From Mariniflexile sp. AS56 (lineage in GTDB: Bacteria > Bacteroidota > Bacteroidia > Flavobacteriales > Flavobacteriaceae): a stretch of DNA of 64,000 bases. Positions 2,335-32,932 of the stretch are shown one piece after another; position 1 is the first letter of the stretch; each line of letters opens with the position of its first letter. The position numbers and the translations under genes were made by a program. The DNA lies in contig NZ_JAUPED010000003.1 in the NCBI RefSeq assembly GCF_030552475.1, forward strand, positions 310,001 to 374,000, in the 5' to 3' direction. The notes below the pieces were generated by a model. That model was not told where the DNA came from and made no database searches. It worked only from the letters and a program-made list of their open reading frames with translations.

Positions 2335-4170
2335 TTAGAGAAACACTTCAATGTTATGCACCCCACTGTCAAGCGTTATAGAAGTTGCTTTCTTTTTAAC
2401 TTTCTTAGAGTTTAAAGTTGTTTTCGATGCTGTTTTTGGTAATACAAATTTAGCAGTCATACCTTCAGGGATTGTTATTTTATAGGTGGTTTCATTATTC
2501 TCTGTTTGATGCTCGGCATAAATAAATCCATGTTGTGTAGGTACTTTTATTTTAGAAAAAGCTAGATCATCCAATTGCGGATTAATTTCAGCAACCTTAA
2601 AACCAGCCGTTTTTGGTTTGATGCCCCACATATAGCGGGTAATGGCATTTATTGGAGCGGTTCCCCAAGCATGGTTCCAATCGGAGTTTGGTTTGTATTT
2701 CATATCCCAAGCTTCCATAGCCATGGTAGAACCTACTTTTATCATATTCCACCAATTACGGTCGCCTTCAGTATCTGCAATTAATGAAGTTGCATAAGCA
2801 GCTTCGTTATTTTTATACAAACCTTCTAATAGATATTGTGCTCCATAAACGCTACAAGCCATACCTCTGGATTTCACAAATTCGGTAACGGTTTTCACAT
2901 GTTCTTTAGGAACCAAATCGAAAGCCAAGGGTAACATATTGGCATGTAAAGAGGAGTGGGTAGAGTTTTCACCATCTAAATAATACCCTTTAGAATGGTT
3001 GAAAAGTTTAGAGTTTATAGTCGCTTTAACCTTATCAGCTTTATTTTTAAAGAAAATAGCATCATCCGTTTTATTAATAGCGGTAGCAATTTCAGTCATT
3101 AACTTCAAATTGTAATAGTAGAAAGCGTTCACAACGGTATTCACCGGTACAATGTCATAGCCATCACGTTCACCTTCAGCGGTTGCTAATTTCCAACCTG
3201 TATCTTTTTGGGCACCTGGCCAATCGATGATATCTCTTATGTTGGTATTCGCTTTTTTAAATCCTAGTTTTAAAATTAAAGCTTCATTTAAGTTAGAAGA
3301 TTTTGAACTTATTAAACCATCGGCACGTTCTAAATCCATCAACGTTTTTAGTTTCAGGTTGTCATAATGTTCCTTTAAAGGTGCCACATCACCGGTATAC
3401 ATATAATCTGCATGAAACATTAACACGGTGTGTAATAACCATTCGGTTGGCCACGTAGGGTTTTCAATAAAATAGGCATTGGTTCTTCTGGCCATGGTAT
3501 ATTCATTATCAACACTGTAATGGCTTAATTGGTTGATGTAAGCATCTGCTTCATAGGGAATACGTTCTCTATCACCATCTACATAATAGCCCATAAAACT
3601 GGTCGCTTTAATGGTATGTTTACACATGTCCCAAATAGAATCCATCACTGCATTTGAAGATGAAAAAGAACTCGCATCATCATTAAATTGATAATGAATG
3701 GCTTTTTGCGATATGTTAAGGTCTTCTATAGGAATTTTTAAGTTTTCTATTTCCAAATATCTAAATGGCATAATAACGCCAATTTGTTCGGGAAGCTTAA
3801 TAGCTGCTGGACCTGTATTTCGTTTGTCTGGTGATAATGGTAGCGTTGTAGGTTGGTTTGCTTGCAAGTTGTTTAGAGTAACTTGTTGGTACCTGATGGT
3901 GCCTCCCGGGTTTCTATCTATTTTGTTTGCATGCTCTATTTTTTCACCTAAACGGAATGTAAGCGTATCGGGGTGTGCGTTTTTGGAAGTGATTTCTAGG
4001 GTTCCAAAAAAGGCTTTTCCAAAATCGATTAGATAATGGCCGTTACTAATTTTTGTGATTTTTTGCGGACTTATTAAAGTCGTTTTTAAGTCTAAATCCT
4101 CGGTACTGTTTTGAGCGTTTACCTGTGTGAAAGCGAGTGTTAACGAAAGTAGAAGAATGTATTTTTTCAT
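2335..4170 (-). CDS. GH78-like alpha-L-rhamnosidase family protein
   Basis: A 611-residue protein with a type I signal peptide (MKKYILLLSLTLAFTQVNAQ), so exported to the periplasm or beyond. The centre carries DGDRERIPYEADAYINQ, matching the GH78 active-site block DGDRERxPWxGD, with the acidic residues kept but W and G replaced by Y and A. A six-hairpin (alpha/alpha)6 barrel follows, with a C-terminal beta domain. It is short for GH78 (often 700-1000 residues), lacking much of the N-terminal beta-sandwich region. Known: GH78 releases alpha-linked L-rhamnose. Inferred: last gene of the minus-strand operon behind the oxidoreductase, after a 149-bp gap with a weak hairpin. The substituted motif leaves specificity uncertain. 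Confidence 0.8.
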   Translation of the reverse strand: MKKYILLLSLTLAFTQVNAQNSTEDLDLKTTLISPQKITKISNGHYLIDFGKAFFGTLEITSKNAHPDTLTFRLGEKIEHANKIDRNPGGTIRYQQVTLNNLQANQPTTLPLSPDKRNTGPAAIKLPEQIGVIMPFRYLEIENLKIPIEDLNISQKAIHYQFNDDASSFSSSNAVMDSIWDMCKHTIKATSFMGYYVDGDRERIPYEADAYINQLSHYSVDNEYTMARRTNAYFIENPTWPTEWLLHTVLMFHADYMYTGDVAPLKEHYDNLKLKTLMDLERADGLISSKSSNLNEALILKLGFKKANTNIRDIIDWPGAQKDTGWKLATAEGERDGYDIVPVNTVVNAFYYYNLKLMTEIATAINKTDDAIFFKNKADKVKATINSKLFNHSKGYYLDGENSTHSSLHANMLPLAFDLVPKEHVKTVTEFVKSRGMACSVYGAQYLLEGLYKNNEAAYATSLIADTEGDRNWWNMIKVGSTMAMEAWDMKYKPNSDWNHAWGTAPINAITRYMWGIKPKTAGFKVAEINPQLDDLAFSKIKVPTQHGFIYAEHQTENNETTYKITIPEGMTAKFVLPKTASKTTLNSKKVKKKATSITLDSGVHNIEVFL

Positions 4171-4194
4171 TTAATAGTAGTTTCTAATTATATA

Positions 4195-4225
4195 AAAACA
4201 GCCTACTAAGGAAGCAAGCTGTTTT
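4195..4225 (-). terminator. Possible terminator or attenuator between oxidoreductase and GH78-like gene
   Basis: An 8-bp inverted repeat (AAAACAGC and GCTGTTTT) with a 15-nt loop is followed by a U-rich run on the minus strand. It lies in the gap of the minus-strand operon and could lower expression of the GH78-like gene. The stem is short, so this is tentative. Confidence 0.35.
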
Positions 4226-4319
4226 ATGTTTTTACTTTTATTATTAAACCTATGTATTGGTTGAATGTTTTTAATATTTAAAAGTTGAATAAGCCAAGAT
4301 ATAACGAATATCTAAATTT

Positions 4320-5669
4320 TTAGACTGGTTTAATTTCCCAACCTGGTTCGTAAGTTCTAGACCATAATTTCATAGCTTCTCTGTTATAAATACGTCCAGT
4401 ATTTTCATCAACTTCAAATGAATCATCAATTCTAGAAGCAATATTAGCGTAATGGGTTAGCATTTGGCTAATAGCACCTTCATCGATAGGTGAGGTCAAT
4501 TCCGCTTTTCCTCTAATGGCATCAAAAAAGTTAAGCGTATGTGCAGCCGAAAGTTGTCCGCCACCACCAAGGGCATTACCGTCTTCAATTCCAGGTACTA
4601 CGTTTTCTTTAATAAGTTTTCCTTTAAGGTCATATAGTTTATAACCATCACGATCTATCATAGTCGATCCGTTAGAACCGTAAATAAGAGTCCCTCTACC
4701 TGCACCATATTTATCATAACCATTTCTACTGCGACCATCCCATTTAATGGTTTTATCACCAGCAAATTTGAACGTAGCTTCCATGGTGTCATACATTTCC
4801 CAACCGTCATCTTTATATTGGTATTTGCCTGCATTTACATCAACGTGTTCTGGATATTTTACCCCTAAAGCCCAACGTGCAATATCTAATTCATGGGTCG
4901 CATTATTTCCCATTTCCGCAGTACCATAATCCCAACCGTACCAATGCCAGTTGTAATTCCAAGTATCATCGGTATAATCTCTTCTTGGGGCAGGCCCTTG
5001 AAAAAGTTCCCAATCTAGCCCTTCTGGTGGGGCTGTTTTTGTTTGATGCGGAACAGGACCACGTTTACTTGTGTAAAAAGCAATGGCATTGTACACATCA
5101 CCAATAACACCGTTATGAATGGCTTTTATAATTTCTTGCGATTGTAATGAGGAGCGCTGTTGATTACCCATTTGCACCACTTTATTGTATTTTTTTTGAT
5201 AAGCTACTAACAGCTCGCCCTCTTCAGGGTTGTGGCTACATGGTTTTTCAAGAAACACGTGTTTCCCTGCTTGCATGGCCATACAGGCGCCTGGTGCGTG
5301 CCAATGGTCTGGTGTAGCCATAAATACAGCATCAACCTCTTTATCGTTTAATATATTTCTAATGTCATTTTCTAACTTAGGCTTATAACTAAGTTTGTTA
5401 GCTAGTTTAGCGGCAGCATTATCGCGCTGGCTTTTCATAACATCACATAAATAACGTAATTCAATGTTGTTTTTCTTATCTGCAATTGGTGGAATGTAAG
5501 CACCATAACGTCTACCTAAACCTTGAATAGCGATATGTAACCTATCATTGGCGCCTATTATTTTTGAATAACTTTTTGCCGACATGGCATTAGCACTGTT
5601 TGAAACTATGGTAGCTCCTATCGCACCTAAAGCTGTTTTTTTTATAAAATCTCTTCTGTTTGAACTCAT
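4320..5669 (-). CDS. Tat-exported Gfo/Idh/MocA family oxidoreductase
   Basis: A 449-residue NAD(P)-dependent oxidoreductase. The N-terminus SSNRRDFIKKTALGAIGA is a twin-arginine signal, so the protein is probably folded with its cofactor and exported to the periplasm. The Rossmann half has the GxGxR-like IQGLGRRYGAYIP and the EKPCSHNP motif typical of the family (EKP Lys). The C-terminal alpha/beta half contains ATHELDIARWALGVKYPEHV. Known: exported members oxidize sugar hydroxyls, often at C3, or act as GH109-like enzymes; inositol dehydrogenases are in the same superfamily. It lies 8 bp downstream of the tandem DUF1080 gene. That pairing suggests 3-keto-glycoside chemistry (oxidation, then cleavage). 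The exact substrate is unknown. Confidence 0.88.
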   Translation of the reverse strand: MSSNRRDFIKKTALGAIGATIVSNSANAMSAKSYSKIIGANDRLHIAIQGLGRRYGAYIPPIADKKNNIELRYLCDVMKSQRDNAAAKLANKLSYKPKLENDIRNILNDKEVDAVFMATPDHWHAPGACMAMQAGKHVFLEKPCSHNPEEGELLVAYQKKYNKVVQMGNQQRSSLQSQEIIKAIHNGVIGDVYNAIAFYTSKRGPVPHQTKTAPPEGLDWELFQGPAPRRDYTDDTWNYNWHWYGWDYGTAEMGNNATHELDIARWALGVKYPEHVDVNAGKYQYKDDGWEMYDTMEATFKFAGDKTIKWDGRSRNGYDKYGAGRGTLIYGSNGSTMIDRDGYKLYDLKGKLIKENVVPGIEDGNALGGGGQLSAAHTLNFFDAIRGKAELTSPIDEGAISQMLTHYANIASRIDDSFEVDENTGRIYNREAMKLWSRTYEPGWEIKPV

Positions 5670-5677
5670 AATAGTAT

Positions 5678-7066
5678 TTAGTCTTTAGTTGTGTTAATCG
5701 GACGAATTTTTACGTTTTTGAAGGATACCAAATCACCATGATCTTGTAATAGTATTTGTCCCTTTTCTAATTCACCAAAATTCGGCCATTTCGCATATTT
5801 ACTTTCCGATACTAATTTTCTGAAGTTATCACTTTTTCTTTCGTACTCTAATACCTTAGCGCCGTTTAGCCAGTGCTCCACATGGTTGTCTTTAGAAATA
5901 ATATAAGCCGTATTCCATTCGCCAATAGGGTTTATTGGTTTATTTAGATCGGCTTGAATTAAATCGTATAGCGAACTTACGGTTCTGCTTCCTTCATGAT
6001 TCCCCAATTTAGCATCAGGATGTAAAGCATCATCTAAAATTTGATATTCTAAACCAATGGAAGAGCCTGCACCTTTATTAATATTGGTGTCTACATAATA
6101 TTTAATACCACTATTTCCGCCAGTATTAACTCTAAAATCTACGGTTAATTCAAAATCACCATATAATTCTGAAGTTACAATATCACCACCAGCAGTCGAT
6201 TCTGCACCGCCAGACGATAATACGCTAAGCACTCCATCTTCAATTTCCCAACCTGTTTCAGGAAACTTGTCAAGTTTAGCACCATGCCAACCCTTGGTTG
6301 TTTCTCCATCCCATAATAACTTCCAACCTTTTTTAGCTTCTTCAATAGTTAATTGGTTTTTAGTTATAATAGGTTTTACAGTCGATTTTTGAGTGTATTT
6401 AGAAAGATCATCAGTAAGAATTTTTACATTTTTCCAGATAATTTCTGTACCAGCTTTTTTATCGGCCTTAATGCTGTGTACTTGTAGACAAATAAAGCCA
6501 CTCGCTGTTTTTTCATCTATTAAATGTGCCGCAGCAACACCATTTACCCACGTTTTAAGGGTGTCACCAATAGCTTCAATACGGTAATGGTTCCAATCGT
6601 TTTGTTTAAACGCTTTTTGAGCGTCAGGGTTATTATCTAAAGTGTTTAACCAACCACGTCGCGATTCATCATAAATACCACCACTCCAAGCGCGCCCAGA
6701 CGGGTCAATTTCTACTTGATACCCGTGAACACGACCCTCTCTATAATGAGGAAGGCTGTTACTACGAATTTGAATACCAGAATTCATGGTAGAATCTACT
6801 TTATAATCCAATTCTAAAATAAAATCGCCATACATTTTATCGGTTGTTAAGAACGAGTTTGGAGTGTCGTGTACGGTTGTACCAACAATAGCGCCGTCTC
6901 TAACAGTGTATGCTGCTTCTCCACCTTTTTGGTGCCATCCGTTTAACGTTTCACCGTCAAATAAGGAAACCCAAGGCGTGTTGTCTTTCGGTTTTTCTGC
7001 ACAGCTAAAAAATAAAGAGATACTACATAATAGTATGGCTCTATTGAAGAAAATAGATTTTTTCAT
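5678..7066 (-). CDS. Tandem DUF1080 (3-keto-disaccharide hydrolase-like) lipoprotein
   Basis: A 462-residue lipoprotein: a hydrophobic leader ends in LFFSC, giving an acylated Cys at about residue 22. Two DUF1080 jelly-roll domains follow. The first starts at WVSLFDGETLNGWHQKGG (about 33-220) and the second at WKLLWDGETTKGWHGA (about 248-458). Both carry the family pattern F/WDGxxxxGWH and a conserved SGIxx strand. Known: DUF1080 proteins hydrolyse or eliminate 3-keto-glycosides made by Gfo/Idh/MocA dehydrogenases. First gene of the minus-strand operon, divergent from susC. Its promoter has a TCCAT direct repeat 58 nt upstream of the ATG, mirrored at susC, so it should respond to the same HTCS regulator. 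Confidence 0.88.
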   Translation of the reverse strand: MKKSIFFNRAILLCSISLFFSCAEKPKDNTPWVSLFDGETLNGWHQKGGEAAYTVRDGAIVGTTVHDTPNSFLTTDKMYGDFILELDYKVDSTMNSGIQIRSNSLPHYREGRVHGYQVEIDPSGRAWSGGIYDESRRGWLNTLDNNPDAQKAFKQNDWNHYRIEAIGDTLKTWVNGVAAAHLIDEKTASGFICLQVHSIKADKKAGTEIIWKNVKILTDDLSKYTQKSTVKPIITKNQLTIEEAKKGWKLLWDGETTKGWHGAKLDKFPETGWEIEDGVLSVLSSGGAESTAGGDIVTSELYGDFELTVDFRVNTGGNSGIKYYVDTNINKGAGSSIGLEYQILDDALHPDAKLGNHEGSRTVSSLYDLIQADLNKPINPIGEWNTAYIISKDNHVEHWLNGAKVLEYERKSDNFRKLVSESKYAKWPNFGELEKGQILLQDHGDLVSFKNVKIRPINTTKD

Positions 7067-7351: not shown

Positions 7352-10300
7352 ATGGTAAAACTAAAACTCTTATTAATAGCCTTATTGGTAGGCTTTACAG
7401 GGGCTTCCTGGGCGCAAAGCAAGGTGTCTGGTGTGGTAGCCGATAGTCAAAACATTCCCATTCCTGGGGTGAATGTTGTTGTTAAAGGTACGTCCAATGG
7501 TGCTGCTACAGATTTTGATGGTAACTATCAAATCAGTGCAAAATCAGGAGATGTATTGGTATTCTCTTATTTAGGGTTTAAATCTCAAGAGGTTACTTAT
7601 AAAGGACAAGCAACTTTGAATGTTAAAATGCAAGAAGATACCGCACAACTTAATGAAGTAGTTGTCATTGGGTATGGTTCTGTTAAGCGTAGTGACTTAA
7701 CAGGTGCTGTTGCTTCTTTAAGTTCTGAAAATATTACAGAACAAAAGAAAACGGATATTGGGCAAGCTATTCAAGGAAAAGTAGCAGGTGTTGATGTTAG
7801 GGCTTTAAGTAATAAGCCAGGGGCGCCTCTTTCTATTAAAATTAGAGGTAACACATCTATAACAAATACCAATGCAGGTCGTGATGGTATTAGTGACGAT
7901 TTGGATGATGATCTTTCAAAACCATTGTACGTGGTTGATGGTATCTTTTTTGAAGATATAAACGCTTTAAATCCAGCAGATATTCAACAATTAGATATTT
8001 TAAAGGATGCTTCGGCTACAGCTATTTATGGGGCGAGAGGTGCAAATGGAGTTGTAATTATTACGACCAAAAGCGGTATAGAAGGTAAAACAGTTTTTAC
8101 TTATGAAGCTACTTTAGGTAGTCGTTCTGTTACTAACGAGCCTGATTATTTTAATGGTGATGAATATGTTGCTTTTGTTGGTGATGTTATTAGAAGTAGA
8201 GAGTGGAAAAACCTTTTTAGTAATGGTGTGCCAACAGTAGCAGACTATAATAATATAAATGTAGCTAGTTTAATTGATACTGAAATTAGAATAACGAATG
8301 AGGAAGCTAGTAATGCAGCAAACAGACGTTATACTAATTGGATAAAAGACTATCAAAAAACAGGTATTCAAACTAGTCATAATTTAGGGATGTCTGGAGG
8401 AAGTGATGGTTTGGTTTATAATGGATCGATTGGATACTTAAGTGATGAAGGTGTGCTAGGTATAGAAGCTTTTGAACGTTATAACATGAGTGCGTCGCTT
8501 TCTAAAAGAGTGACTGACGATTTAACAGTAGGATTAAAAACATATTTGTCATTCTCTGAACGTGAAGAGGGAAGTAGAGAGTTGTATAGAAGTACACAAC
8601 GTTTAGCCCCAACAGTAAATTCTCGTGATACCGACGGAAATATTATTTTATTTCCAGACGATCAAGATTTACGTTTCACAAACCCTTATTATGATGCCAC
8701 AGGAGCTTGGAGAAATAATACAAGAGCTTTAAACGTAATTGCGAATGTGTTTGTAAACTACAAACCAACAGACTGGGTGAATTTTAAAACTCAATTTTCA
8801 CCAAACTTGAGTACAGAAAGATTTGGTGAGTACAGAGGTTTACTTACAAAAAGTTCTCGTAATGATGCTTCTCGTATTCAATCACACTATAATAGTTTTT
8901 TTAGTACAGCTTATACGTGGGATAATATTGTAGATTTTAATTTTGATTTAGCAGAAGGTCATAATTTGAAATCAACCTTAATTTCATCCGTTTACTACAA
9001 ACAAGATGAAGGAAGTAATGTTCAAACAAGAAATTTTGATACAGACGCCTATTTATTTTATAATACGGGTGTAGGTACAGACCCAAGAAGTTATGACTCT
9101 TACTATGAAAAAGAAACAACATCGTCTTTCGCGGCAAGAGTAAATTATAGTATCCTAGATAAATATCTTTTTACATTTACAGGAAGGTATGATGGCGCTT
9201 CAAAATTAGCCGTTAATAATAAATGGGATTTCTTCCCTTCTGCAGCCATAGCTTGGAAAGTAACAGAAGAAGACTTTATGCAAAACACCGATTGGTTAGA
9301 TAATTTAAAACTAAGGTTAAGTTACGGGGAGTCTGGTAACTATAGTACAGTTAGGCCATATGAGTCATTGGCATTTTTAAATAATACAGATTATATATTT
9401 GGTAATAACCTTACTAATGGAGTTACTGTTTCTGGATTTACTAATTATGATTTGACTTGGGAACGCTCAAAAGAATTGAATGTTGGTTTAGATTTAGGGG
9501 TTTTACAGAATAAAATACGTCTAGGTTTAGAAGTGTATAGTAAGACAACAGACGGAGGTATTTTAGCAAGAACCTTATCTCCAATTACTGGGTTTGGCTC
9601 AGCAACAGGTAATTATGGTTCTGTACGTAATAGTGGTGTTGAGATTACTTTAAATACTAGAAACATACAAACTGAGAATTTTAAATGGACTACCGATTTG
9701 AATTTTGCTAGAAACAAAAATGAAATATTGGAGCTAGACGGTGAATTAGATTTAATCCCTTACGGTAACCACGGTGTTTTACAAATAGGTGAAGCTGTAG
9801 ATGCTATTTGGGCACCAGAAAAACTAGGTATTTGGCAACTAGATGAAGCTGCAGAAGCTGCTGTGTATGGTAGATTTCCTGGAGAATATAAGTTTAGAGA
9901 TGTGAATAATGATGGAAGCATTAATTCAGCGGATAATGTTATTTTAGGACAAGTATCTCCTGATTGGACTGCAGGTATGACTAATACGTTTTCATATAAA
10001 AATCTAGATTTATCTGTTCAAGTATATACGAGACAAGGTACTTTTGGACATTCAGAATTTAACCAACTTTCTGTGCCATGGCAAGGGGATGATGCTAAAT
10101 TTAATAAAGTAGATTTAGATTATTGGACACCAAATAATCAAGATTCTAAAAATCCAGCTTTAGAGTATGGAGCAGGTGCAGATTGGTATTATACAGATTT
10201 TGATTTTGTAAGAGTAGGAAATATAGGCTTAGGCTATGAGTTTTCACAGTCTATGTTGGATAAATTAAAAATGTCAAGTTTGCGTTTATCATTGGATATC

Positions 10301-10420
10301 CAAAACCCATTTACGTTCACAGACTATGAAGGATCAGATCCTGAAACAGGACTTCAGAATAACTATAATGGTGGTTATTTAGTTAAAACCATATTATTTG
10401 GACTTAAGTTATCTTACTAA
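7352..10420 (+). CDS. SusC-like TonB-dependent outer-membrane glycan transporter
   Basis: A 1022-residue outer-membrane protein with a signal peptide ending in GASWAQ. It continues with a carboxypeptidase-regulatory-like domain (about 23-100: GVVADSQNIPIPGVNVVVKGTSNG), the NEVVVIGYG linker, a plug domain (about 115-245, with DASATAIYGARGANGVVIITTK) and a 22-strand barrel. Known: SusC proteins import oligosaccharides with a SusD lid. The plug has an acidic insertion (GISDDLDDDLSKP, about 190), a family-variable spot. Usual length for the family (about 1000). First gene of a ten-gene operon ending in the HTCS. SusD follows 19 bp after the stop. Confidence 0.97.
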   Translation: MVKLKLLLIALLVGFTGASWAQSKVSGVVADSQNIPIPGVNVVVKGTSNGAATDFDGNYQISAKSGDVLVFSYLGFKSQEVTYKGQATLNVKMQEDTAQLNEVVVIGYGSVKRSDLTGAVASLSSENITEQKKTDIGQAIQGKVAGVDVRALSNKPGAPLSIKIRGNTSITNTNAGRDGISDDLDDDLSKPLYVVDGIFFEDINALNPADIQQLDILKDASATAIYGARGANGVVIITTKSGIEGKTVFTYEATLGSRSVTNEPDYFNGDEYVAFVGDVIRSREWKNLFSNGVPTVADYNNINVASLIDTEIRITNEEASNAANRRYTNWIKDYQKTGIQTSHNLGMSGGSDGLVYNGSIGYLSDEGVLGIEAFERYNMSASLSKRVTDDLTVGLKTYLSFSEREEGSRELYRSTQRLAPTVNSRDTDGNIILFPDDQDLRFTNPYYDATGAWRNNTRALNVIANVFVNYKPTDWVNFKTQFSPNLSTERFGEYRGLLTKSSRNDASRIQSHYNSFFSTAYTWDNIVDFNFDLAEGHNLKSTLISSVYYKQDEGSNVQTRNFDTDAYLFYNTGVGTDPRSYDSYYEKETTSSFAARVNYSILDKYLFTFTGRYDGASKLAVNNKWDFFPSAAIAWKVTEEDFMQNTDWLDNLKLRLSYGESGNYSTVRPYESLAFLNNTDYIFGNNLTNGVTVSGFTNYDLTWERSKELNVGLDLGVLQNKIRLGLEVYSKTTDGGILARTLSPITGFGSATGNYGSVRNSGVEITLNTRNIQTENFKWTTDLNFARNKNEILELDGELDLIPYGNHGVLQIGEAVDAIWAPEKLGIWQLDEAAEAAVYGRFPGEYKFRDVNNDGSINSADNVILGQVSPDWTAGMTNTFSYKNLDLSVQVYTRQGTFGHSEFNQLSVPWQGDDAKFNKVDLDYWTPNNQDSKNPALEYGAGADWYYTDFDFVRVGNIGLGYEFSQSMLDKLKMSSLRLSLDIQNPFTFTDYEGSDPETGLQNNYNGGYLVKTILFGLKLSY

Positions 10421-10439
10421 TTTTTTAAAATATACAAAG

Positions 10440-21371: not shown

Positions 21372-21375
21372 CATC

Positions 21376-24361: not shown

Positions 24362-26200
24362 ATGAGATTTCAAAAGAAGGCATTATTAGTTTTATCCGTG
24401 CTTGTGCTGGTTTCGTGTGCTAAAAAATTAAAACCAGAGCTTAAAGACGTACAGATTGCTTTTATTGCCGATGCTCATTTTCAAGATATTTTCGCTGAGT
24501 TTGAAGATGCGAATTATAAAGGAATAAAAAATCCAGAAACGGGAGCGTATGTGAATATAAGAACCATGCAGGCTCAATTAACATCCACGCGGCTTTTCAA
24601 TGAGAATTACTTTGCTTTTTTTGCAGCCTTGGATGATATTGTTGCCAGAGGTATAAAATATGTGGCTTTACCGGGTGATTTTAGTGATGACGGGCAACCT
24701 GTTCACGTAAAAGGATTACGGAACATATTAGATGCCTATGCCGCGAAACACGGTATCTTATTTTTCGCAACCACAGGCAATCATGACCCTGTAAAACCGT
24801 TTACTCAAGATGCTGGTAAAACCGATTTTTTAGGTGAAGGCGGTAAAGAACAGATCATTACCAGTTCCTCTGAAAATTTAAAAGCTGAGGTAGATGGGCA
24901 ATTAAAGCCAATTATTACTTCAGAAATTAAAAAATGGGGTTATAAAGATGTTCTAAATGAAATGGCTTCATTTGGTTTTTATCCTCAAAAGGAATACCTG
25001 TATTGGGAAACGCCATTTTCAACCTATAATTATAAAAATTACAGATTTCAAAAAGCTAAAAAGGAATCTTCTATAAACCAAAGAGTTTATCCGGTTGATG
25101 CCCATAACTTTCATCCAGATGCTAGTTATATGGTGGAGCCAACTCCTGGGTTGTGGCTATTAGCAATCGACGCAAATGTGTACATGCCTAATAAAGACCT
25201 AATTGGTTTTTCTGAGAACCCAAAAGATTTTTCGGGAGCACGTATAGGGTATAATCAAGTGCTTTTACAAAAAAGTCATTTGATTGCATGGGTGAAAAAA
25301 GTATCAGACCAAGCCAAGAAGGAAGGGAAAGTTTTAATAGCCTTCAGTCATTACCCTATGGTCGATTTTAATGACGATGCTTCCCCAGAAATGACACAAT
25401 TTTTCGGAGACGAAAAAATGCAATTGCACCGTGTACCTAAGGAAGAGGTTGCTAAAACCTTTGCCGATGCGGGTATCCAAATTCATTTTGGCGGGCATAT
25501 GCATATTAATGATACGGGTGTAAGAACTAGTGATAACGGGCATACATTATTCAATATTCAAAGTCCGTCGTTGGCAGCTTATATGCCGGCGTATAAAATT
25601 TTATCTATTAAAAATAAGCAAGAATTTGAAGTAGAAACGGTGGTTATAGATTCGGTTCCAAATTTTAATAGTTTATTTCCTTTGTATGAGCAAGAATATG
25701 CACATTTAAACACCATAAAATCGGCAACCATTTGGGATAAAGATATTTTGAATTCCAAAAGCTATAAGGCATTTACGCAATGGCATTTAAAAGAATTATT
25801 GCGTTTAAGATTTCTGCCAGACGATTGGCCTGTTGCCTTATCTGAAACCTTATTGAAAGCATCAGGAACGGAATTGTTGTTAATCAATACCTCAAATAAA
25901 GCTAAAATCAATGAACAATTAGCTTTAGAAAAATTACCTTTAAACCAATTTGAAACTTGGACTGGTTTTGATATGATTTTTGATTTTTATAGATTGCGTA
26001 GTGCAGATGCCTTAGCGTTTCCAGATATTGGAGCAACGCGTTTAAAGCAATATGCCTTAGTTTGTGATCAAATGAAGCAATCAGATGATGCATTATTTCA
26101 GCTTTGGGGGACTATCTTTGAAAAATCAAGAAACGGGCAACCATCAAATCATTTTAAAATAGATTTAGGTTCAAAGACTATTGAATCAATAAACGAATAA
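24362..26200 (+). CDS. Lipoprotein calcineurin-like metallophosphoesterase
   Basis: A 612-residue lipoprotein (leader LVLVSC, Cys about 20). Metallophosphoesterase motifs: IADAHF (DxH), LPGDFSDDGQP (GDxxDxG), TTGNHDP (GNHD), IAFSHYP and FGGHMH, the complete dinuclear-metal set. A C-terminal alpha-helical region (about 440-612) is of unknown role. Known: the fold cleaves phosphomonoesters or phosphodiesters. Next to a PI-PLC-like domain and an inositol oxygenase in one regulon, an inositol-phosphate or sugar-phosphate phosphatase is a reasonable inference, not proven. It sits 13 bp after GH115 and 22 bp before the HTCS gene. Confidence 0.88.
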   Translation: MRFQKKALLVLSVLVLVSCAKKLKPELKDVQIAFIADAHFQDIFAEFEDANYKGIKNPETGAYVNIRTMQAQLTSTRLFNENYFAFFAALDDIVARGIKYVALPGDFSDDGQPVHVKGLRNILDAYAAKHGILFFATTGNHDPVKPFTQDAGKTDFLGEGGKEQIITSSSENLKAEVDGQLKPIITSEIKKWGYKDVLNEMASFGFYPQKEYLYWETPFSTYNYKNYRFQKAKKESSINQRVYPVDAHNFHPDASYMVEPTPGLWLLAIDANVYMPNKDLIGFSENPKDFSGARIGYNQVLLQKSHLIAWVKKVSDQAKKEGKVLIAFSHYPMVDFNDDASPEMTQFFGDEKMQLHRVPKEEVAKTFADAGIQIHFGGHMHINDTGVRTSDNGHTLFNIQSPSLAAYMPAYKILSIKNKQEFEVETVVIDSVPNFNSLFPLYEQEYAHLNTIKSATIWDKDILNSKSYKAFTQWHLKELLRLRFLPDDWPVALSETLLKASGTELLLINTSNKAKINEQLALEKLPLNQFETWTGFDMIFDFYRLRSADALAFPDIGATRLKQYALVCDQMKQSDDALFQLWGTIFEKSRNGQPSNHFKIDLGSKTIESINE

Positions 26201-26222
26201 TAGCAATTACAATAAATCCTTA

Positions 26223-29200
26223 ATGAGACAGCATTTTACCATAACATTTTTATGTATCATGTCTTTTTTTTGTGCGGTATCTCAGAGCATAAAATTTGAG
26301 CATTATAACGATAATGGTGGGCTCTCTCATAATTCCATTCGGCACATTGTTCAAGATAAACACGGGTTTTTATGGATTGGAACCTTTTCAGGGCTTAATC
26401 GTTTTGATGGCTATGAGTTTAAAACCTATTTAAGCACCTTTCCAAAGGATAATAAAATCCAGAATGATGATATTACGGCTTTAAAATTTGATGAAGCATC
26501 TAATAACCTATGGATTGGAACCCGAAAAGGATTAACCCTTTTTGAAACAGATATCCAGAAATTCACCACTTTTTTACCCGATCCTGATGATGGGAATAGT
26601 CTACCAGATGAGGAAGTTAGGGCGGTATACGTTGATAAATTTAAACGAGTATGGGTGGGTACCAAAAACGAAGGACTTTATATGTTTTTTGTTGAAGAAA
26701 ACCGATTTAAAAAAATAAAATTAGATGGCTTTAATTATATAAAAGAAATTTTTGAAGATAAAAATGGCAATATTTGGATAGGGAGTTATGAAACCGCTTC
26801 TGTGGCTAAAATAACTTTAAACCAGAAAGGCGATGTCGATCAGGTGGTTACGTATACCTTAGGTGTTCCCAATTCAAAAGACAAAAATCCATACCTAAAT
26901 TTTATATATGAAGATGCCAAATCCGATATTTTTGTTGGAACCCGAGAAGGCCTGTATAAATTAAAAAAAGAGACCAACCAATTTGTAAATTTATTTATAA
27001 AAGATGATGAGATTCGAGATAGTTTGGGGCCTTACTTTTTATCGGTGGTTCAAGCACCCGATGGAAAATATTGGGTGGGTACTTTGGGTGGTCTTATTGT
27101 TTGCGACCAGTTAGAAGGCATTAGAAGAGGGAATTTTAAAAGACATTATTCGGTTTTATCTGATGATACATCACTAGTTGATAATTTAGTTTCAGCCTTA
27201 TATTTTGATAATTCTGGTGTACTATGGATAGGTACCGAAGATGGTTTGGATAAGTACGACCCTTATGAGAATCAATTCAATATTAATAAAGATATTTCAC
27301 GGTCTATAGGGAATCAAGTTCCTAGAATTCGTGGGTTTGCTAAAACCTACGATAATAAAGTCATTGTTGCAACAAGACATAACGGTCTCTTTGTATCAAA
27401 AAACGAGAGTTTTAATCCGTTATACAACAACCAGAAAGATATTGCTAGTATTTATTCCATAGATGGTAAAACGTTTTATTGTGGCTTGTGGAGCGGGAAA
27501 GTGTTGGTTTATAATTATGTGAATAACACTTCTAAAGTAATTCATGTTGGTTTTGAAAAATCGCCCGTTTTCGCTTTTTCGGATATCGGAAATGATGAAA
27601 TTATGCTAGGTTCTTTTGGTGAAGGTGCCATTATTTTAAATACAAAGAGTTTAGAATTAAATACAGAATTAGGTGTACTGCTTGAAGATTATGAAATTAA
27701 TGAAATTATAAAAGACACCTATAATAACATCTGGTTCGCAACTGAAACAGGTGTTGTAAAATATGCTGTCGATTCTAAATCGATGGTGTTCTATAAAACG
27801 ACTTCCAATGCCAATAAAGGGCTTTCACATAATAACGTGAGTGATATTATGCTTGATGCTACGGGTGAAATTTGGGCAGCCACACGTAAAGGAATTAGTT
27901 TTTTTGATACTAAAATTAACGACTTCAGTCCTATAAAAGAGCCTAAAGAACTTGCCGGTAAGTGGGTTACAGATATGGTTACAGATGCCAATGGCGATTT
28001 GTGGCTAAACATGAATAATAATAGCATCTCCCGGCTTAAAAAAAACCTCAAAGACTTTAATATTTATCACGTAAATAGCGGAAATAGGTTGGATGTTTTT
28101 AGTTCTAGCGGGTTCTTCAATTTCGGAAATTCTAATATTTATTTGGGAGGGAAAAATGGCATCATTTATTTTTCACCTTATACTATTAAAGAAAACCAAA
28201 TAGCACCCAACCCCATCATTACAGAATTTAAAATTCAGAATAAAGAAGTTTTACCTGGTTTAGAAATTAACGATCAAGTTCCTTTACTTAAAGATTTAAA
28301 TGAAACTAAAAGTGTTGAGCTGAATTATAAAAATAGGAATTTTTCACTTCAGTTTTCAACACCATCTTACGCTAATGAAAAGCTGAATAAATTTGAGTAC
28401 ATGCTTGAAGGTTTTGATAAAAACTGGATTGCAGCAAGCAGTAATTCTAGAACCATTCAATACACCAATTTATTTCCGGGAGACTATGTGTTTAAAATTA
28501 AATCGAGTAATAGCGATGGGCATTGGAGTGGTGTAGTTTCATATAAAATAAAAATTACGCCGCCGTTTTGGTTAACTTATAAGGCACTTGTTTTAGTTTT
28601 ATTGCTTTTATTTTTAATCTTTTATTTTATAAAGAAAGAAGTTAAAAATCGCATTCGCTTAAAGCAAGAGTTGGTTACAGAAAAAGTTAATAGAGAGCGG
28701 GATATTAAACTGAATAACGAGAAACTACGTTTTTTCACCAACATATCACACGAACTTAGAACGCCTTTAACCCTTATTTTAGGGCCTGTAAAACAACTGC
28801 TAGAAGAGGCACAAGAAAGCAGTACAGAATACCAAAAAAGTAGGTATAACTTAATTCATCAAAACGCAAGTAGACTTTTAAATTTAGTAAACCAAGTGCT
28901 AGATTTTAGAAAGGCACAAACAGGTGAATTAAAACTAAAAGTCTCTAAAACGGATATTCTTTTATACACTAAAAACACTTTTGATTCCTTTAAAGAGCTT
29001 GCCTATAATAAGCACATTGAAATGAATTTTAATACGGAGGATGAAGCATTTTATGGTTGGATAGATCGCGATAAGTATGATAAAATTCTATACAATCTAC
29101 TCTCTAACGCTATCAAATTTACCAACAAATATGGGCATGTTGAACTGTATGTACGCTTTAAAGATGATAAAGACGATATTTTAGTTATTGAAGTAAGTGA

Positions 29201-30260
29201 TGATGGTATTGGTATTCCTGTAAAAAGCCAGGAAAAGATATTTACACGGTTTTACCAAGCTACCAATAGTAGAGAAAACAATACGGGGTCTGGTATTGGG
29301 TTATCGTTAGTAAAGTCGTTGGTAGAGTTGCATAAAGGCACTATTAAAGTACAGAGTACAGCAGGAACGGGGAGTGTGTTTACAGTTGAAATTCCTGTAA
29401 AACGAAATGCCTACACTAAAAAGGAGGTTTTTGAGTTTGTTTCTTCCAATGAAAATGAACAAGAAGTGCCTGATTATACGCCTGTTAAGAAAATAACCAA
29501 TAACGTAGAAATTAAAGAAAAAATATTAGTTGTTGAAGATAATTTAGAGCTTCGTAAATATCTAATAGATTATCTGTCTGATTATTACAAAGTGTATGAA
29601 GCAGAAAATGGTGAAGAAGGCCTTCAAATTTGCCGTCAAATAAAACCCATTTTATGTGTGGCCGACGTGATGATGCCTGTAAAAAACGGACTCGAATTTT
29701 GTAAAGAATTAAAGAATGATGAGTTTATAAGTCACATTCCTGTAATCTTACTCACCGCACTTTCAGAAAATGAAGATAAAGTAAAGGGTTATGATGTGGG
29801 GGCTGATGGGTATTTAGTGAAACCTTTCGATCCGGCCTTACTTAAAACGGTCATCGTAAACGTGATAAAAACCCGAGTAGAACTAAAAACTAAATTTTCA
29901 GGAGAGGTAGAAAGTGAAGTCGGCTTGTTAACACATTCCCCTATAGATAAAGATTTGATGGAGAAAATCACCCATCTTATAGAAGAGCACTTAAGTAATA
30001 TAGATTTAACCACTAGTTTTCTTTGTAACGAGTTGGGCATGAGTTCTTCTAAATTATATAGAAAAATTAAAGAGTTAACAGATTTAGCTCCCAATGAATT
30101 TATACGAACCATCCGATTAAAAAAATCGGCACAACTTCTAAAATCTAAAAAACACAACGTATCTGAAGTTACTACGATGGTTGGGTTCAATGATCCGTTA
30201 TACTTCAGCAGGTGTTTTAAAAAGCAATTTGGGTTTCCGCCAAGTAAATTATTAAAATAA
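26223..30260 (+). CDS. Hybrid two-component system regulator (HTCS)
   Basis: A 1345-residue one-protein signalling system. Order: signal peptide; two seven-bladed propellers of Reg_prop repeats (about 25-720, repeated LWIGT); Y_Y_Y domain (about 725-783); one membrane helix (about 784-806); histidine kinase with NISHELRTP (His843) and ATPase boxes DDGIGIP and GSGIGLSLVKSL; receiver with VADVMMP (Asp1148) and LVKPF; C-terminal AraC HTH (about 1235-1345). Known: HTCS proteins bind a glycan fragment in the periplasm and activate their locus. As the last gene of the operon it can amplify its own expression. The TCCAT direct repeats before susC, DUF1080 and MIOX are its likely sites. Confidence 0.96.
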   Translation: MRQHFTITFLCIMSFFCAVSQSIKFEHYNDNGGLSHNSIRHIVQDKHGFLWIGTFSGLNRFDGYEFKTYLSTFPKDNKIQNDDITALKFDEASNNLWIGTRKGLTLFETDIQKFTTFLPDPDDGNSLPDEEVRAVYVDKFKRVWVGTKNEGLYMFFVEENRFKKIKLDGFNYIKEIFEDKNGNIWIGSYETASVAKITLNQKGDVDQVVTYTLGVPNSKDKNPYLNFIYEDAKSDIFVGTREGLYKLKKETNQFVNLFIKDDEIRDSLGPYFLSVVQAPDGKYWVGTLGGLIVCDQLEGIRRGNFKRHYSVLSDDTSLVDNLVSALYFDNSGVLWIGTEDGLDKYDPYENQFNINKDISRSIGNQVPRIRGFAKTYDNKVIVATRHNGLFVSKNESFNPLYNNQKDIASIYSIDGKTFYCGLWSGKVLVYNYVNNTSKVIHVGFEKSPVFAFSDIGNDEIMLGSFGEGAIILNTKSLELNTELGVLLEDYEINEIIKDTYNNIWFATETGVVKYAVDSKSMVFYKTTSNANKGLSHNNVSDIMLDATGEIWAATRKGISFFDTKINDFSPIKEPKELAGKWVTDMVTDANGDLWLNMNNNSISRLKKNLKDFNIYHVNSGNRLDVFSSSGFFNFGNSNIYLGGKNGIIYFSPYTIKENQIAPNPIITEFKIQNKEVLPGLEINDQVPLLKDLNETKSVELNYKNRNFSLQFSTPSYANEKLNKFEYMLEGFDKNWIAASSNSRTIQYTNLFPGDYVFKIKSSNSDGHWSGVVSYKIKITPPFWLTYKALVLVLLLLFLIFYFIKKEVKNRIRLKQELVTEKVNRERDIKLNNEKLRFFTNISHELRTPLTLILGPVKQLLEEAQESSTEYQKSRYNLIHQNASRLLNLVNQVLDFRKAQTGELKLKVSKTDILLYTKNTFDSFKELAYNKHIEMNFNTEDEAFYGWIDRDKYDKILYNLLSNAIKFTNKYGHVELYVRFKDDKDDILVIEVSDDGIGIPVKSQEKIFTRFYQATNSRENNTGSGIGLSLVKSLVELHKGTIKVQSTAGTGSVFTVEIPVKRNAYTKKEVFEFVSSNENEQEVPDYTPVKKITNNVEIKEKILVVEDNLELRKYLIDYLSDYYKVYEAENGEEGLQICRQIKPILCVADVMMPVKNGLEFCKELKNDEFISHIPVILLTALSENEDKVKGYDVGADGYLVKPFDPALLKTVIVNVIKTRVELKTKFSGEVESEVGLLTHSPIDKDLMEKITHLIEEHLSNIDLTTSFLCNELGMSSSKLYRKIKELTDLAPNEFIRTIRLKKSAQLLKSKKHNVSEVTTMVGFNDPLYFSRCFKKQFGFPPSKLLK

Positions 30261-30291
30261 AAACAGTCACTTTATAGCCTTATTAAATTCA

Positions 30292-30346
30292 TCCATGTTT
30301 TTGATGTAATAATCCATTTCCATATTTAATACTTACTTTAACTTCG
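30292..30346 (+). promoter_or_regulatory. Predicted HTCS operator and promoter of the MIOX gene
   Basis: TCCAT boxes at 30292-30296 and 30313-30317 are 21 bp apart. The first is followed by G (CCATG), and a GAT stands where the other two sites have GAA. A -7-like TAACTTCG (30339-30346) lies 21 nt after the second box and 27 nt before the ATG. The match to the susC and DUF1080 promoters in spacing and sequence places MIOX and the symporter in the HTCS regulon. Confidence 0.65.
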
Positions 30347-30373
30347 TGTTTAAGTACAACTAAAATAGAAGCG

Positions 30374-31252
30374 ATGAAAGAGTCATTACATAAAAATCAA
30401 CAAAACCCGATGGAGAATGTTGACGATTGGGAAGAAAACTTAATAGAGAGATATCCCGATCCTTCTGAAATTAAAAAGGAAAAAGAAGAATTTAGAAACT
30501 ATGTAGATTCTGAGCGGTTGGATACCGTTAGAGAATTTTATAAAATAAATCATGAATATCAAACCTATGATTTTGTTTGTTACAAAGAAACAGAATTTTT
30601 GAAATTTGATAGAAAGGAAATGTCCATTTGGGAAGCTGTAGAGTTTCTAAACACATTGGTCGATGATAGCGATCCTGATATTGATTTAGACCAAACACAA
30701 CACCTGTTGCAAACCTCAGAAGCCATTCGTGCTGATGGACATCCCGATTGGTTTGTGCTTACAGGCTTTATTCACGATTTAGGTAAAATTTTATGTTTGT
30801 TTGGCGAACCTCAATGGGCTGTTGTAGGCGATACATTTCCCGTAGGTTGTGCCTTTTCAGATAAAATTGTGTATCCGGAATTTTTTAAAGATAATCCAGA
30901 TTATACCAATGAACGTTTCAATACAAAATATGGGGTTTATGAACCAAATTGCGGTTTAGACCAAGTGAAAATGAGTTGGGGACATGACGAGTATTTATAC
31001 CAAATAATGAAGGACCATTTGCCAGATCCCGCTTTGTATATGATTCGTTACCATTCATTTTACTCACAACACAGAGAAAATGATTATAGACATTTAATGA
31101 ATGATAAAGATGTTGAAATGTTTGAATGGGTTAAAAAATTCAATCCTTATGACTTGTATTCAAAAGCACCAGTGCCGCCAAACGTAAAAGAGCTTATGCC
31201 TTATTACAAAGAATTGGTCGCTAAATATTTACCTGAAAAGCTCAATTTCTAA
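30374..31252 (+). CDS. myo-Inositol oxygenase (MIOX)
   Basis: A 292-residue cytoplasmic protein without signal peptide that looks like MIOX over its full length. All six di-iron ligands of the animal enzyme have counterparts: His110 ([12 protein letters not shown]), His134-Asp135 (GFIHDLGK), His204 (WGHDEYLYQ), His227 (MIRYHSFYS), Asp260 (NPYDLY). GDTFPVGC is also kept. Known: MIOX uses oxygen to open myo-inositol to D-glucuronate; it is mainly eukaryotic, with scattered bacterial homologues. Here it joins inositol release to the glucuronate pathway. Its own HTCS-type operator shows it is induced with the glycan locus. The symporter gene follows after 102 bp. Confidence 0.93.
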
Positions 31253-31279
31253 ACACATTTAAAATTACAATACGATCTG

Positions 31280-31305
31280 TTGAATTGGTATACATATCAA
31301 TTCAA
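31280..31305. other. Near-palindrome before the symporter gene
   Basis: A 26-bp near-palindrome with perfect 8-bp outer arms (TTGAATTG and CAATTCAA) and a mostly symmetric centre lies between MIOX and the symporter. It has no T run, so it is not an obvious terminator. It could be a regulator site or an mRNA-processing hairpin. Function unknown. Confidence 0.4.
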
Positions 31306-31354
31306 TAGATATTTTATTGCCTATTAAAAACTAAACTAAACTAAACCACCACCT

Positions 31355-32932
31355 ATGTATACAGTGATTACCTTTTTTGCTTTCACAGCTTTTGTAGCTT
31401 TCTATTCCTGGTATAAACTTAGAAAAGAAAAATTAGACTCAAAAGATGGTTATTTTTTGGGAGGAAGAAGCTTAACGGGGGTCGTTATTGCAGGTTCCAT
31501 GCTGCTTACTAATATTTCAACCGAACATCTTATTGGTATGAATGGTTCTTCATATAAAAACGGATTCATCATCATCGCCTGGGAAGTCACATCGGCATTA
31601 GCCTTAGTAGCAGCAGCTATTTATTTCGTGCCTAAATATTTGAAAATGGGACTAACAACCATTCCGGAATATTTAGAAAAACGGTTTGATAGCACCACAA
31701 GAACCTTGGTGGCGCTATTTTTAATGATATCCTTTATTGTCACTTTATTACCTATTGTACTTTATACAGGGGCAATAAATATTGAAAGTATCTTTAATAT
31801 TTCAGAAGTTTTAGAGGTTTCTAAAGAACAAGGTTTGTGGATTACGGTAGTTGCTATTGGTGTTTTAGGATCTATTTATGCCATTTTTGGAGGCTTGAAG
31901 GCGGTTGCAGTTTCTGATACTATTAATGGTTACGGACTTTTAATTGGTGGACTTGCCATACCATTAATAGCCTTAGTGAGTATTGGTGACGGGAATCCTT
32001 TAGATGGTTTAGTAAAAGTGTATAATCACAGTCCAGAAAAATTTAACGTCGTAGGCGCGAAAGATTCGGTACTTCCTTTTGGTGTGCTTTTTACAGGGTT
32101 AATTATTAATCAACTGTATTTTTGGAGTATGAATCAAACCATCATTCAGCGCGCTTTAGGTGCTAAAAATTTGGTTGAAGCTCAAAAAGGACTCTTGTTT
32201 ACAGGTGTTTTAAAAATACTAGTTCCTATAATTATAATTTTACCAGGAGTTATTGGTTTCTATTATTTTGGTGATTCGTTATACGAAAATCAAGATATGA
32301 TTTACCCCGAGCTTATTAAAAAAGTATTACCTGTTGGCTTAGTGGGTATTTTTGCAGCCATCGTTATGGGAGCTGTGTTGAGTACGTTTAACAGTGTTTT
32401 GAATAGTGCAGCCACTATTTTTAGTATCGATGTTTACAAAAGGCATTTAGGGAAAAATTGTAGCGATAAAAAACTAGTTCGTGTAGGGAAGTTGACCTCT
32501 ACTATTTTAGCTATTTTCGCGATACTTGTAGCGCCTATGGTAGCGAATGCTCCAGATGGCTTATACCAACTTTTACAGCAACTGAATGGTATCTTTTTTA
32601 TACCAATTGCTTCTATTATGTTAGCAGGGTTTTTTCTTAAAAGAATATCAGCTTTGGGAGCAAAAGCAGCTTTATTTGTGGGGCTTGCGTTTTACATTTT
32701 AACCACTTTCATTTTAAAAGTAGATATCCACTTTGTGCATATTTGGGGTATTGAGTTTTTGTTGAATTTAGCCGTGATGTTTGGTGTGTCCTATTTCTAT
32801 CCTGCCGATAAGGATTTCAATCAAGAAGATTTACACGTGGTAGATTTAAAAGAATGGAAATACACAAAACCGATGGCAATCGCCCTTTGTGTTATCACTG
32901 TTTTAATTTACATCATGCTCGGACAAAACTAA
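31355..32932 (+). CDS. Sodium/solute symporter (SSS/SLC5 family)
   Basis: A 525-residue inner-membrane protein with about 13-14 helices. SSS landmarks: SKDGYFLGGRSLTG after helix 1, LTNISTEHLIGMNGSSYKNG, GLTTIPEYLEKRFDS, and IYAIFGGLKAVAVSDTINGYGLLIGG (the family signature region). A late helix has GAVLSTFNSVLNSAATIFSIDVYK. Known: members import sugars, sugar acids or inositol with sodium. Next to MIOX, and probably transcribed with it, inositol or glucuronate is the best guess. Ion-coupling serines occur near STFNSVLNSA. A terminator follows. Confidence 0.9.
   Translation: MYTVITFFAFTAFVAFYSWYKLRKEKLDSKDGYFLGGRSLTGVVIAGSMLLTNISTEHLIGMNGSSYKNGFIIIAWEVTSALALVAAAIYFVPKYLKMGLTTIPEYLEKRFDSTTRTLVALFLMISFIVTLLPIVLYTGAINIESIFNISEVLEVSKEQGLWITVVAIGVLGSIYAIFGGLKAVAVSDTINGYGLLIGGLAIPLIALVSIGDGNPLDGLVKVYNHSPEKFNVVGAKDSVLPFGVLFTGLIINQLYFWSMNQTIIQRALGAKNLVEAQKGLLFTGVLKILVPIIIILPGVIGFYYFGDSLYENQDMIYPELIKKVLPVGLVGIFAAIVMGAVLSTFNSVLNSAATIFSIDVYKRHLGKNCSDKKLVRVGKLTSTILAIFAILVAPMVANAPDGLYQLLQQLNGIFFIPIASIMLAGFFLKRISALGAKAALFVGLAFYILTTFILKVDIHFVHIWGIEFLLNLAVMFGVSYFYPADKDFNQEDLHVVDLKEWKYTKPMAIALCVITVLIYIMLGQN

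Follow-up and report, generated by a model that had tools for sequence, protein, structure and literature searches.

What does a bacterium take up with a locus that joins a phosphatidylinositol-specific phospholipase C (PI-PLC), a myo-inositol oxygenase (MIOX) and α-glucuronidase-type genes to a SusC/SusD importer? The question is raised by a 64,000-nucleotide stretch of the genome of Mariniflexile sp. AS56 (contig NZ_JAUPED010000003.1, positions 310,001 to 374,000, forward strand; hereafter the window, in whose own coordinates positions are given). Twelve plus-strand genes, from SusC to a sodium symporter of the SSF family (7352–32932), follow one another there with intergenic gaps of at most 157 bp, according to the listing of open reading frames (ORFs) and to Pfam and NCBIfam scans (Table 1). 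Adjacent susC and susD homologues, linked carbohydrate-active enzymes and a regulator qualify the run as a polysaccharide utilisation locus (PUL). We consider it probable that the locus serves the utilisation of an inositol phospholipid with a glycosylated head group, one of the glycosyl inositol phosphoceramides (GIPCs), a reading in which the activities, the order of the steps and the substrate are all deduced from sequence. Fucose and perhaps rhamnose would be the sugars targeted in the window, a decoration that probably represents an algal or seagrass variant. With less assurance, we also lean towards the wider view that the locus belongs to a widespread Bacteroidota family of GIPC loci, whose variable cargo mirrors the head groups and in which an α-1,2-glucuronidase precedes the PI-PLC, and that it represents the first complete bacterial route.

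PI-PLCs attack through the 2-hydroxyl of inositol. The best-described plant GIPC is GlcNAc(α1→4)GlcA(α1→2)inositol-1-O-phosphorylceramide, and glucuronic acid (GlcA) is the first sugar in all plant GIPCs characterised to date, with mannose (Arabidopsis), GlcN(Ac) (rice, tobacco), galactose and arabinose among the further sugars, head-group structures being described as largely unknown (PMC8099651); fucose is also counted among GIPC sugars (PMC12201980). Since GlcA occupies the 2-oxygen in the best-described GIPC, the PI-PLC should depend on the prior action of an α-1,2-glucuronidase. BoAgu115A, an enzyme of glycoside hydrolase (GH) family 115, takes GlcA off O-2 of xylose (PMC3879575), and on this basis the frequent pairing of the phospholipase (PLC) with GH115 or GH115-like genes becomes intelligible.

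In the proposed mechanism, SusC and SusD would bind the lipid or its head group for import, and the exo-glycosidases (GH29, GH78-like, GH92) would trim its outer sugars. Removal of glucuronate from inositol O-2 would then fall to GH115 and the GH115-like lipoprotein. The α-glucuronidase would in this way gate the PI-PLC, the freed 2-hydroxyl letting the PI-PLC-C1 domain attack the phosphodiester and release ceramide and inositol (cyclic) phosphate, from which a lipoprotein metallophosphoesterase (MPE) would free myo-inositol. The sodium symporter would import the inositol and MIOX would oxidise it to glucuronate; this and the glucuronate released earlier could both proceed via UxaC, a mannonate reductase and UxuA. 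Co-direction, the short gaps and a conserved regulator suggest that the genes form one regulon.

The PI-PLC-C1 domain reaches 421.7 bits against PF16670 (curated cut-off 29.9) and is encoded by the single gene of its kind in the 4.65 Mb draft genome (G000). Among solved structures it is significantly related to two Ca-dependent bacterial PI-PLCs, and the best Foldseek matches of an AlphaFold model (pLDDT 91.8) are 5fyr (1.3e-14) and 3h4w (5.4e-13), followed by PLC-delta 1qat (6.7e-8); the model thus points to the fold of a Ca-dependent PI-PLC. All 15 of 15 aligned PLC sequences share H14, N15, E59, D61 and H105 (domain numbering), candidates for the catalytic His pair and the Ca ligands. The fold, and probably these candidate catalytic residues, are common to the window domain and the solved Ca-dependent PI-PLCs of Pseudomonas sp. 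(5fyo) and Streptomyces antibioticus (3h4w), whereas its identity to them is 14–18% (Foldseek rows), it is fused to an esterase and it lies inside a glycan locus. The nearest named relative among the best 80 of 564 is from Mariniflexile gromovii (82% identity). In some relatives the esterase is fused to the PLC, in others it is a separate adjoining gene.

The GH115 gene, whose probable start lies 4 bases past the PLC stop, was compared with the active site of BoAgu115A at N205, D206, H275, R328, D332, Y373-K374-E375, D396, N398, Y420, H422, Y425 and N462 (PMC3879575), the residues being placed by motif rather than by superposition and W249 not being placed with confidence. The active-site residues so placed are kept in the window GH115 (21337–24348) and are identical in 39/39 aligned GH115 rows. 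Of the pocket residues, the N-D pair and single Y, D, H and N positions persist in the GH115-like protein (12250–14301; 16 rows); E375 is replaced by Asp, K374 by Ser or Ala (YKE becoming YSD or YAD) and N398 by Gly in 16/16 rows. Its model has a pLDDT of 71 and is poor around the pocket, and its best Foldseek matches are still GH115 enzymes (6e-13). Given the altered active site, we call this protein GH115-like on sequence and model and do not assign it to GH115.

For the inositol part of the route, solved inositol oxygenases align with the greater part of MIOX (299.5 bits to 2huo), which carries the conserved iron-binding His/Asp motifs (alignment to 2huo, motif positions), the presumed metal ligands. 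A second MIOX clade (approximately 320 bits; 26 genes found) has an SSF gene adjoining MIOX in 10/10 fetched loci (L134–L143), which supports the window symporter as an inositol importer; these loci are without a labelled PLC, GH92 or GH115. The phosphoesterase has weak solved relatives (Lmo2642, 1.8e-4; Rv0805, not significant), and its role as an inositol-(cyclic)phosphate hydrolase is a proposal. UxaC is encoded elsewhere in the window genome, and we infer that the route ends at UxuA, in a separately oriented cluster that needs the distant UxaC. The bacterial iol pathway, which has inositol as carbon source in common with the proposed route, was considered and rejected in its canonical form: IolD reaches at best 254 bits in the window genome against a cut-off of 715, and of the other iol genes only the KduI/IolB superfamily was examined, with one KduI-type match. 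The window locus would use the MIOX route instead.

We then asked how widely the combination recurs, in draws of 299 genomes of the family and 395 of the phylum. Drawn genomes are given G numbers and fetched loci L numbers, and gene labels in them are best BLAST matches, uncurated. Full-length denotes more than 380 bits for PLC and more than 310 bits for MIOX, in lists read by eye from profile scores. Within the family draw PF16670 occurs in 24 genomes, full-length PLC in 21 and full-length MIOX in 44. Both full-length genes are present in 17 (Fisher 1.3e-12, kinship of genomes uncorrected), and in 11 of these 17 they are no more than 25 kb apart. One of the 11, G006, has a MIOX gene with two in-frame TGA stops (C3:86117–86866 in L048); its locus also has PLC, an HGSNAT homologue, GH29 and GH92, and this MIOX copy is decayed or misassembled. 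Flanks of up to approximately 20 kb on each side were fetched for the 20 other full-length PLC genomes; the locus is of the glycosidase type in nine and partially so in one (G006), while in the remaining ten PLC stands with SusC-type genes, in some cases also with MPE, and the fetched stretch has no gene labelled GH92, GH115 or GH29.

A further set of 80 named loci was chosen by similarity to an alignment of ten module PLCs, as the best 80 of 564, so that the 48 of glycosidase type among them are no measure of prevalence. This type is defined by a BLAST match to GH115, GH115-like or GH92, and the absence of these from the other 32 is true by definition. The 48 loci carry GH92-type genes, MPE and the hybrid regulator in 47 cases each, GH29a and GH28 in 19 each, GH115 in 38, GH115-like in 20, and one or the other of the last two in 44. 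The initial annotation had suggested, as a check, to look for PI-PLC-C1, MIOX and GH115 together in SusCD loci, and the outcome is positive both in the distances of the family draw and in the 44/48 of the named loci. MIOX lies within the short flanks in 20/48, an under-count, since the 10 kb flanks often stop close to the regulator. Hosts include Maribacter, Flavivirga, Cellulophaga, Algibacter, Wenyingzhuangia and Flavobacterium and, more distantly, Ancylomarina and a metagenome-assembled genome of Prolixibacteraceae. A short contig with MIOX, SSF, GH29, MPE and regulator (L196) stood first among the 32 and was later moved to the glycosidase type; L225, among the 32, has a MIOX match. PLC rows identical to those of G genomes in seven named loci mean that the two sets are not independent. 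A PLC tree of 116 rows (109 different) places the window in a 56-row group (98/94), of which 55 rows are of glycosidase type and one is from an 8.6 kb contig.

The simpler type (PLC in 32, a SusC-labelled gene in 23, MPE in 20 of the 32 loci) is exemplified by L213, L215, L230, L236 and L239 and by G143, G014, G236 and G172 (Algoriphagus, Zobellia and others). Such loci, lacking glycosidase labels by rule, would suit a scavenging of phosphate from inositol phospholipids to which the sugar genes are incidental. We hold this to be the least probable of the explanations considered, as 47/48 glycosidase-type loci have a hybrid regulator of the carbohydrate type and MIOX, the symporter and in some loci UxuA are linked to them. 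Gating by the α-glucuronidase, as proposed for GIPC, would explain the same PLC family in glycosidase-free loci, where it would act on unglycosylated inositol lipid.

Counting from MIOX is free of the PLC selection bias. The window's clade, taken as the score class of 362–379 bits, comprises 20 genomes: MIOX is near PLC in this module in ten, in the module without nearby PLC in seven (G115, G127, G144, G153, G164, G211, G297) and in other contexts in three (G135, G137, G249). The 17 module loci have GH115 or GH115-like in 14, MPE in 12, PLC in 10 and GH89 in 7. G127 and G153 encode a PLC elsewhere in the genome, and the other five PLC-less module genomes have none at E ≤ 0.001. It follows from the seven that the glycan-inositol part can exist without PLC. 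GH89 and an HGSNAT homologue, with no PI-PLC-C1 nearby, are seen in the MIOX loci of G164, G115, G144, G297 and G127 (L131, L250, L132, L129, L126, L254), and near the GH89-bearing MIOX locus of L254 there is a fusion of a glucosamine-6-phosphate isomerase-type domain and a PIG-L de-N-acetylase domain (14110–16035, minus strand).

Two other explanations meet these counts. SusCD systems normally import soluble glycans, and the locus might import inositol phosphate glycans that are already delipidated, its PI-PLC serving free phosphatidylinositol or inositol phosphorylceramide (IPC) in parallel. The seven MIOX loci with GH89/HGSNAT homologue, GH115, GH115-like or GH92 and no PLC nearby speak for this, as does a fungal enzyme that releases such glycans from GIPC (PMC11496612). 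It is nevertheless unlikely in our estimate, with PLC being part of the run itself in the window and also in 10/17 MIOX-counted module loci, and MPE in 47/48 glycosidase-type named loci (PLC being there by selection). The other explanation, which the initial annotation had named as the plainer one, is a locus for a fucosylated glucuronomannan or similar polysaccharide beside an unrelated free-inositol module. GH29, GH92 and GH115 suit such a glycan, and MIOX-SSF pairs stand without these genes in the 10/10 second-clade loci and in G249 and G135 of the window clade. Against it, MIOX is in the module in 17/20 window-clade genomes, MPE, MIOX and glycosidases recur together across genera, the Pfam tables of the window show no lyase, sulfatase or family judged endo-acting, and a sulfatase signature has no match in 491 ORFs of 49 loci. 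We give this polysaccharide reading very little probability, though not quite as little as phosphate scavenging.

If GIPCs are the substrate, the variable cargo should mirror the head groups: GH92 would indicate mannosyl series, the HGSNAT homologue with GH89 glucosaminyl series, GH2, GH43 or the arabinofuranosidase-like protein longer series, and GH29 fucosylated ones. GH89 and the HGSNAT homologue occur together in 8/48 named loci (seven Flavobacterium, one Wenyingzhuangia), labelled by BLAST to the proteins of G061, and GH115 is present in the same 8/8. The G061 HGSNAT homologue matches the human enzyme with E 4.2e-22 (chain of PDB 8vkj), Pfam DUF5009 being under cut-off, and its GH89 has 412 Pfam bits. 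An HGSNAT profile scored above 660 bits in ten of the 299 genomes, in seven of them within approximately 20 kb of MIOX and three not (G189, G219, G289); this count is given no weight, the profile being partly built from the same loci. Other variant cargo comprises GH2, an arabinofuranosidase-like protein, GH38, extra GH92, GH43, GH27-like and GH125. Labels were given to 450 of the 491 ORFs (at least 200 aa) by a query set without lyase or sulfatase, and nine of the 41 unlabelled ORFs were scanned with Pfam (two GH125, three GH43, one each GH27-like, GH16 and multicopper oxidase, one without match). A Bacteroides GH89 cuts the terminal α1-4-linked GlcNAc of heparosan oligosaccharides (PMC8225759). 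Matching the cargo families to head-group linkages in this way leaves each bond of the best-described GIPC head group with a candidate family. The pathway proposed in the initial annotation gains from both the co-occurrence and this fit of the cargo to known GIPC head groups.

Of the two lipid substrates that it had named, glycosylphosphatidylinositol (GPI) anchors fit less well than GIPCs, with GH115 beside GH89 in 8/8 named loci. PI-PLC does act on GPI, and in loci for GPI anchors or GPI-anchored arabinogalactan proteins GH92 would take the mannoses, GH89 and the HGSNAT homologue the GlcN, PI-PLC and MPE would free the inositol and GH115 would remove arabinogalactan GlcA. A GlcN-inositol would suit HGSNAT and GH89, and G144 and G297 have this pair without a labelled GH115; the closest solved relative of the window GH115 is BtGH115A, an arabinogalactan-active enzyme; and GH43 (no subfamily assigned) is found in some relatives. 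However, GH115 or its relative is in 44/48 loci, and GH115 in all eight GH89 named loci, though not in G127, G144 and G297, while the window Pfam tables contain neither GH89 nor families typical of arabinogalactan backbones, for which the relatives were not searched systematically. We judge the GPI reading improbable. A xylan or arabinogalactan locus in the window was rejected, GH115 being the sole matching family in the Pfam tables. Heparan or heparosan as the substrate of the GH89 relatives is thought unlikely, with 450/491 ORFs matching the lyase- and sulfatase-free query set, no sulfatase signature and PLC adjacent; the unlabelled ORFs are mostly unscanned.

Several observations weigh against the GIPC reading. 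Most PI-PLC-C1 loci are not of the glycosidase type: PF16670 occurs in 29/395 genomes of the phylum draw, where 1/20 fetched loci is of this type. Six glycosidase-type rows of the PLC tree fall outside the 56-row group (L185, L190, G229, L196, L210, G006). Neither GH115 nor GH115-like is found in 4/48 glycosidase-type named loci (L186, L192, L210, L212) or in 3/17 MIOX-counted module loci, and the GH115-like protein has gaps at the equivalents of R328 and D332 in 16/16 rows. Module parts without nearby PLC characterise 7/8 extended MIOX loci; G164 has no labelled PLC or MPE in approximately 60 kb, with PAP2-type and FG-GAP/ASPIC genes upstream, and GH10 and GH5 genes past the symporter of G115 make a xylan context possible there. 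By a crude localisation rule, the 48 glycosidase-type PLCs are lipoprotein-like in 21 cases, have another signal in 26 and none in one, so that 27/48 would not be lipoproteins, which bears on where the enzyme could meet a lipid. A ceramide-degrading gene was not identified, the ceramidase search giving no match with its control likewise silent, from which nothing is concluded. No bond is assigned to the esterase, to the GH78-like and 3-keto genes or to GH28 (19/48 relatives), and rhamnose is not among the GIPC sugars in the literature examined. Glucuronosylation of IPC is termed plant-specific (PMC9113257), which leaves a marine source open, and the literature seen reports no marine algal GIPC that bears GlcA or is fucosylated; the reference list of PMC4820303 has titles on inositol sphingolipids of red seaweeds.

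The nearest described case is from a fungus. BCIN07g04350 of Botrytis cinerea, a putative sphingomyelinase, is a GIPC phospholipase C and has the proposed reaction in common with the window enzyme, from GIPC to inositol phosphate (glycan) and ceramide; it frees glycosylated head groups, whereas the window enzyme is of the PI-PLC-C1 family and would need inositol O-2 to be free (PMC11496612). Matches listed in the open-access literature included no description of bacterial GIPC utilisation, preprints and most subscription journals being outside that scope, and no open-access paper was found that joins GIPC with PULs. By word search of an article on inositol lipid metabolism in gut Bacteroidetes, GIPC appears solely in a reference title and MIOX is unnamed in the main text (PMC9246714). 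Like other Bacteroidota PULs, the window clusters SusC, SusD, exo-glycosidases and a hybrid two-component regulator, and it differs from them by its phospholipase C, phosphoesterase, MIOX and sodium symporter and by the proposed target, a lipid-linked inositol glycan; it is in this retargeting of a SusCD locus that we see the novelty. The eight GH89/HGSNAT named loci recall in turn the lysosomal HGSNAT-NAGLU step of heparan sulfate breakdown, having relatives of both proteins, but they are bacterial, with the pair beside PI-PLC and GH115, and the pair is not in the window itself.

Should the reading hold, this would be the first complete bacterial route, with its enzymes named, for a lipid called the predominant sphingolipid in Earth's biomass. 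Head-group specificity would become predictable from gene content and reagents for dismantling GIPC head groups would be at hand. SusCD systems would then reach beyond polysaccharides to lipid-linked glycans, and in related loci bacteria would have their own equivalent of the human HGSNAT-NAGLU step.

Table 1. Genes of the locus and its surroundings in the window.
Feature	Position	Strand	Evidence
GH78-like α-L-rhamnosidase-type 6-hairpin hydrolase, signal-peptide-like N-terminus	2335..4170	-	Bac_rhamnosid6H PF17389 7.1e-40
Gfo/Idh/MocA oxidoreductase, Tat-like N-terminus	4320..5669	-	nearest NCBIfam glycoside 3-dehydrogenase 155 bits, far under cut-off 750
Lipoprotein-like protein, two 3-keto-disaccharide hydrolase domains	5678..7066	-	PF06439 3.6e-90, 2 stretches
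SusC/RagA TonB-dependent outer-membrane importer	7352..10420	+	TIGR04056 795 bits
SusD-type surface binding lipoprotein	10398..12092, probable start ATG 10440	+	PF07980, PF14322
GH115-like lipoprotein (G115L), putative α-glucuronidase relative, altered active site	12250..14301	+	PF15979 68.6 bits, 8.7e-19
GH92 α-mannosidase-type lipoprotein	14312..16642	+	PF07971 443 bits
GH29 α-L-fucosidase-type enzyme a	16647..17948	+	PF01120 249 bits
GH29 α-L-fucosidase-type enzyme b	17990..19405	+	PF01120 287 bits
Fusion of α/β-hydrolase esterase (approx. residues 50-280) and PI-PLC-C1 (284-609)	19533..21371	+	PF20434, PF16670
GH115 α-glucuronidase	21337..24348, probable start ATG 21376	+	PF15979 438 bits, GH115_C
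Calcineurin-like phosphoesterase (MPE), lipobox-like N-terminus	24362..26200	+	PF00149 1.1e-7
Hybrid two-component regulator	26223..30260	+	Reg_prop, Y_Y_Y, HisKA, HATPase, receiver, HTH_18
myo-Inositol oxygenase MIOX	30374..31252	+	PF05153 374 bits
SSF sodium symporter, proposed inositol importer	31355..32932	+	NF007790 726 bits
UxuA mannonate dehydratase	35213..36391	-	TIGR00695 600 bits
D-mannonate oxidoreductase, SDR type	36412..37326	-	NF006132 429 bits vs cut-off 281

Every gene named in the initial annotation was recovered at its place in the ORF listing and the Pfam and NCBIfam scans, and the Gfo/Idh/MocA dehydrogenase and 3-keto-disaccharide hydrolase genes (4320–7066) are additions to that inventory. 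The two are also adjacent, next to related loci, in G207, G229, G002 and G137; in the window the pair is divergent from susC, and it possibly represents a second, oxidative route to cleavage of glycosidic bonds. Relatives of the GH78-like gene are present in G002 and L188. Scans for promoters and terminators gave no surplus over shuffled sequence; that for terminators in 14000–33500 is uninformative, with 11 sites against 13.4 in shuffles. The stretch separating MIOX from the symporter has one AT-rich hairpin (31275–31310). Between the symporter and UxuA, one protein combines a metallo-β-lactamase (RNase Z-like) domain, YHYH and EF-hands (33004–35049, minus strand), and no BLAST counterpart of it is labelled in the related loci.

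A plasmid search of one flank gave no match. In Flavobacterium loci a protein of approximately 598 aa without Pfam match is recurrent (L155:6639–8432, plus strand; L176, L181, L189, L192, L193), in most of them adjoining a DUF4861 protein. Elsewhere in the window there are two tRNA-Lys(ttt) genes of equal Rfam score, 254 bp apart (38606–38679 and 38934–39007, minus strand), and, at 58410–62419 (plus strand), an ABC transporter ATPase with two ABC domains and a gene of the mannitol dehydrogenase type, which may form a polyol locus of their own.

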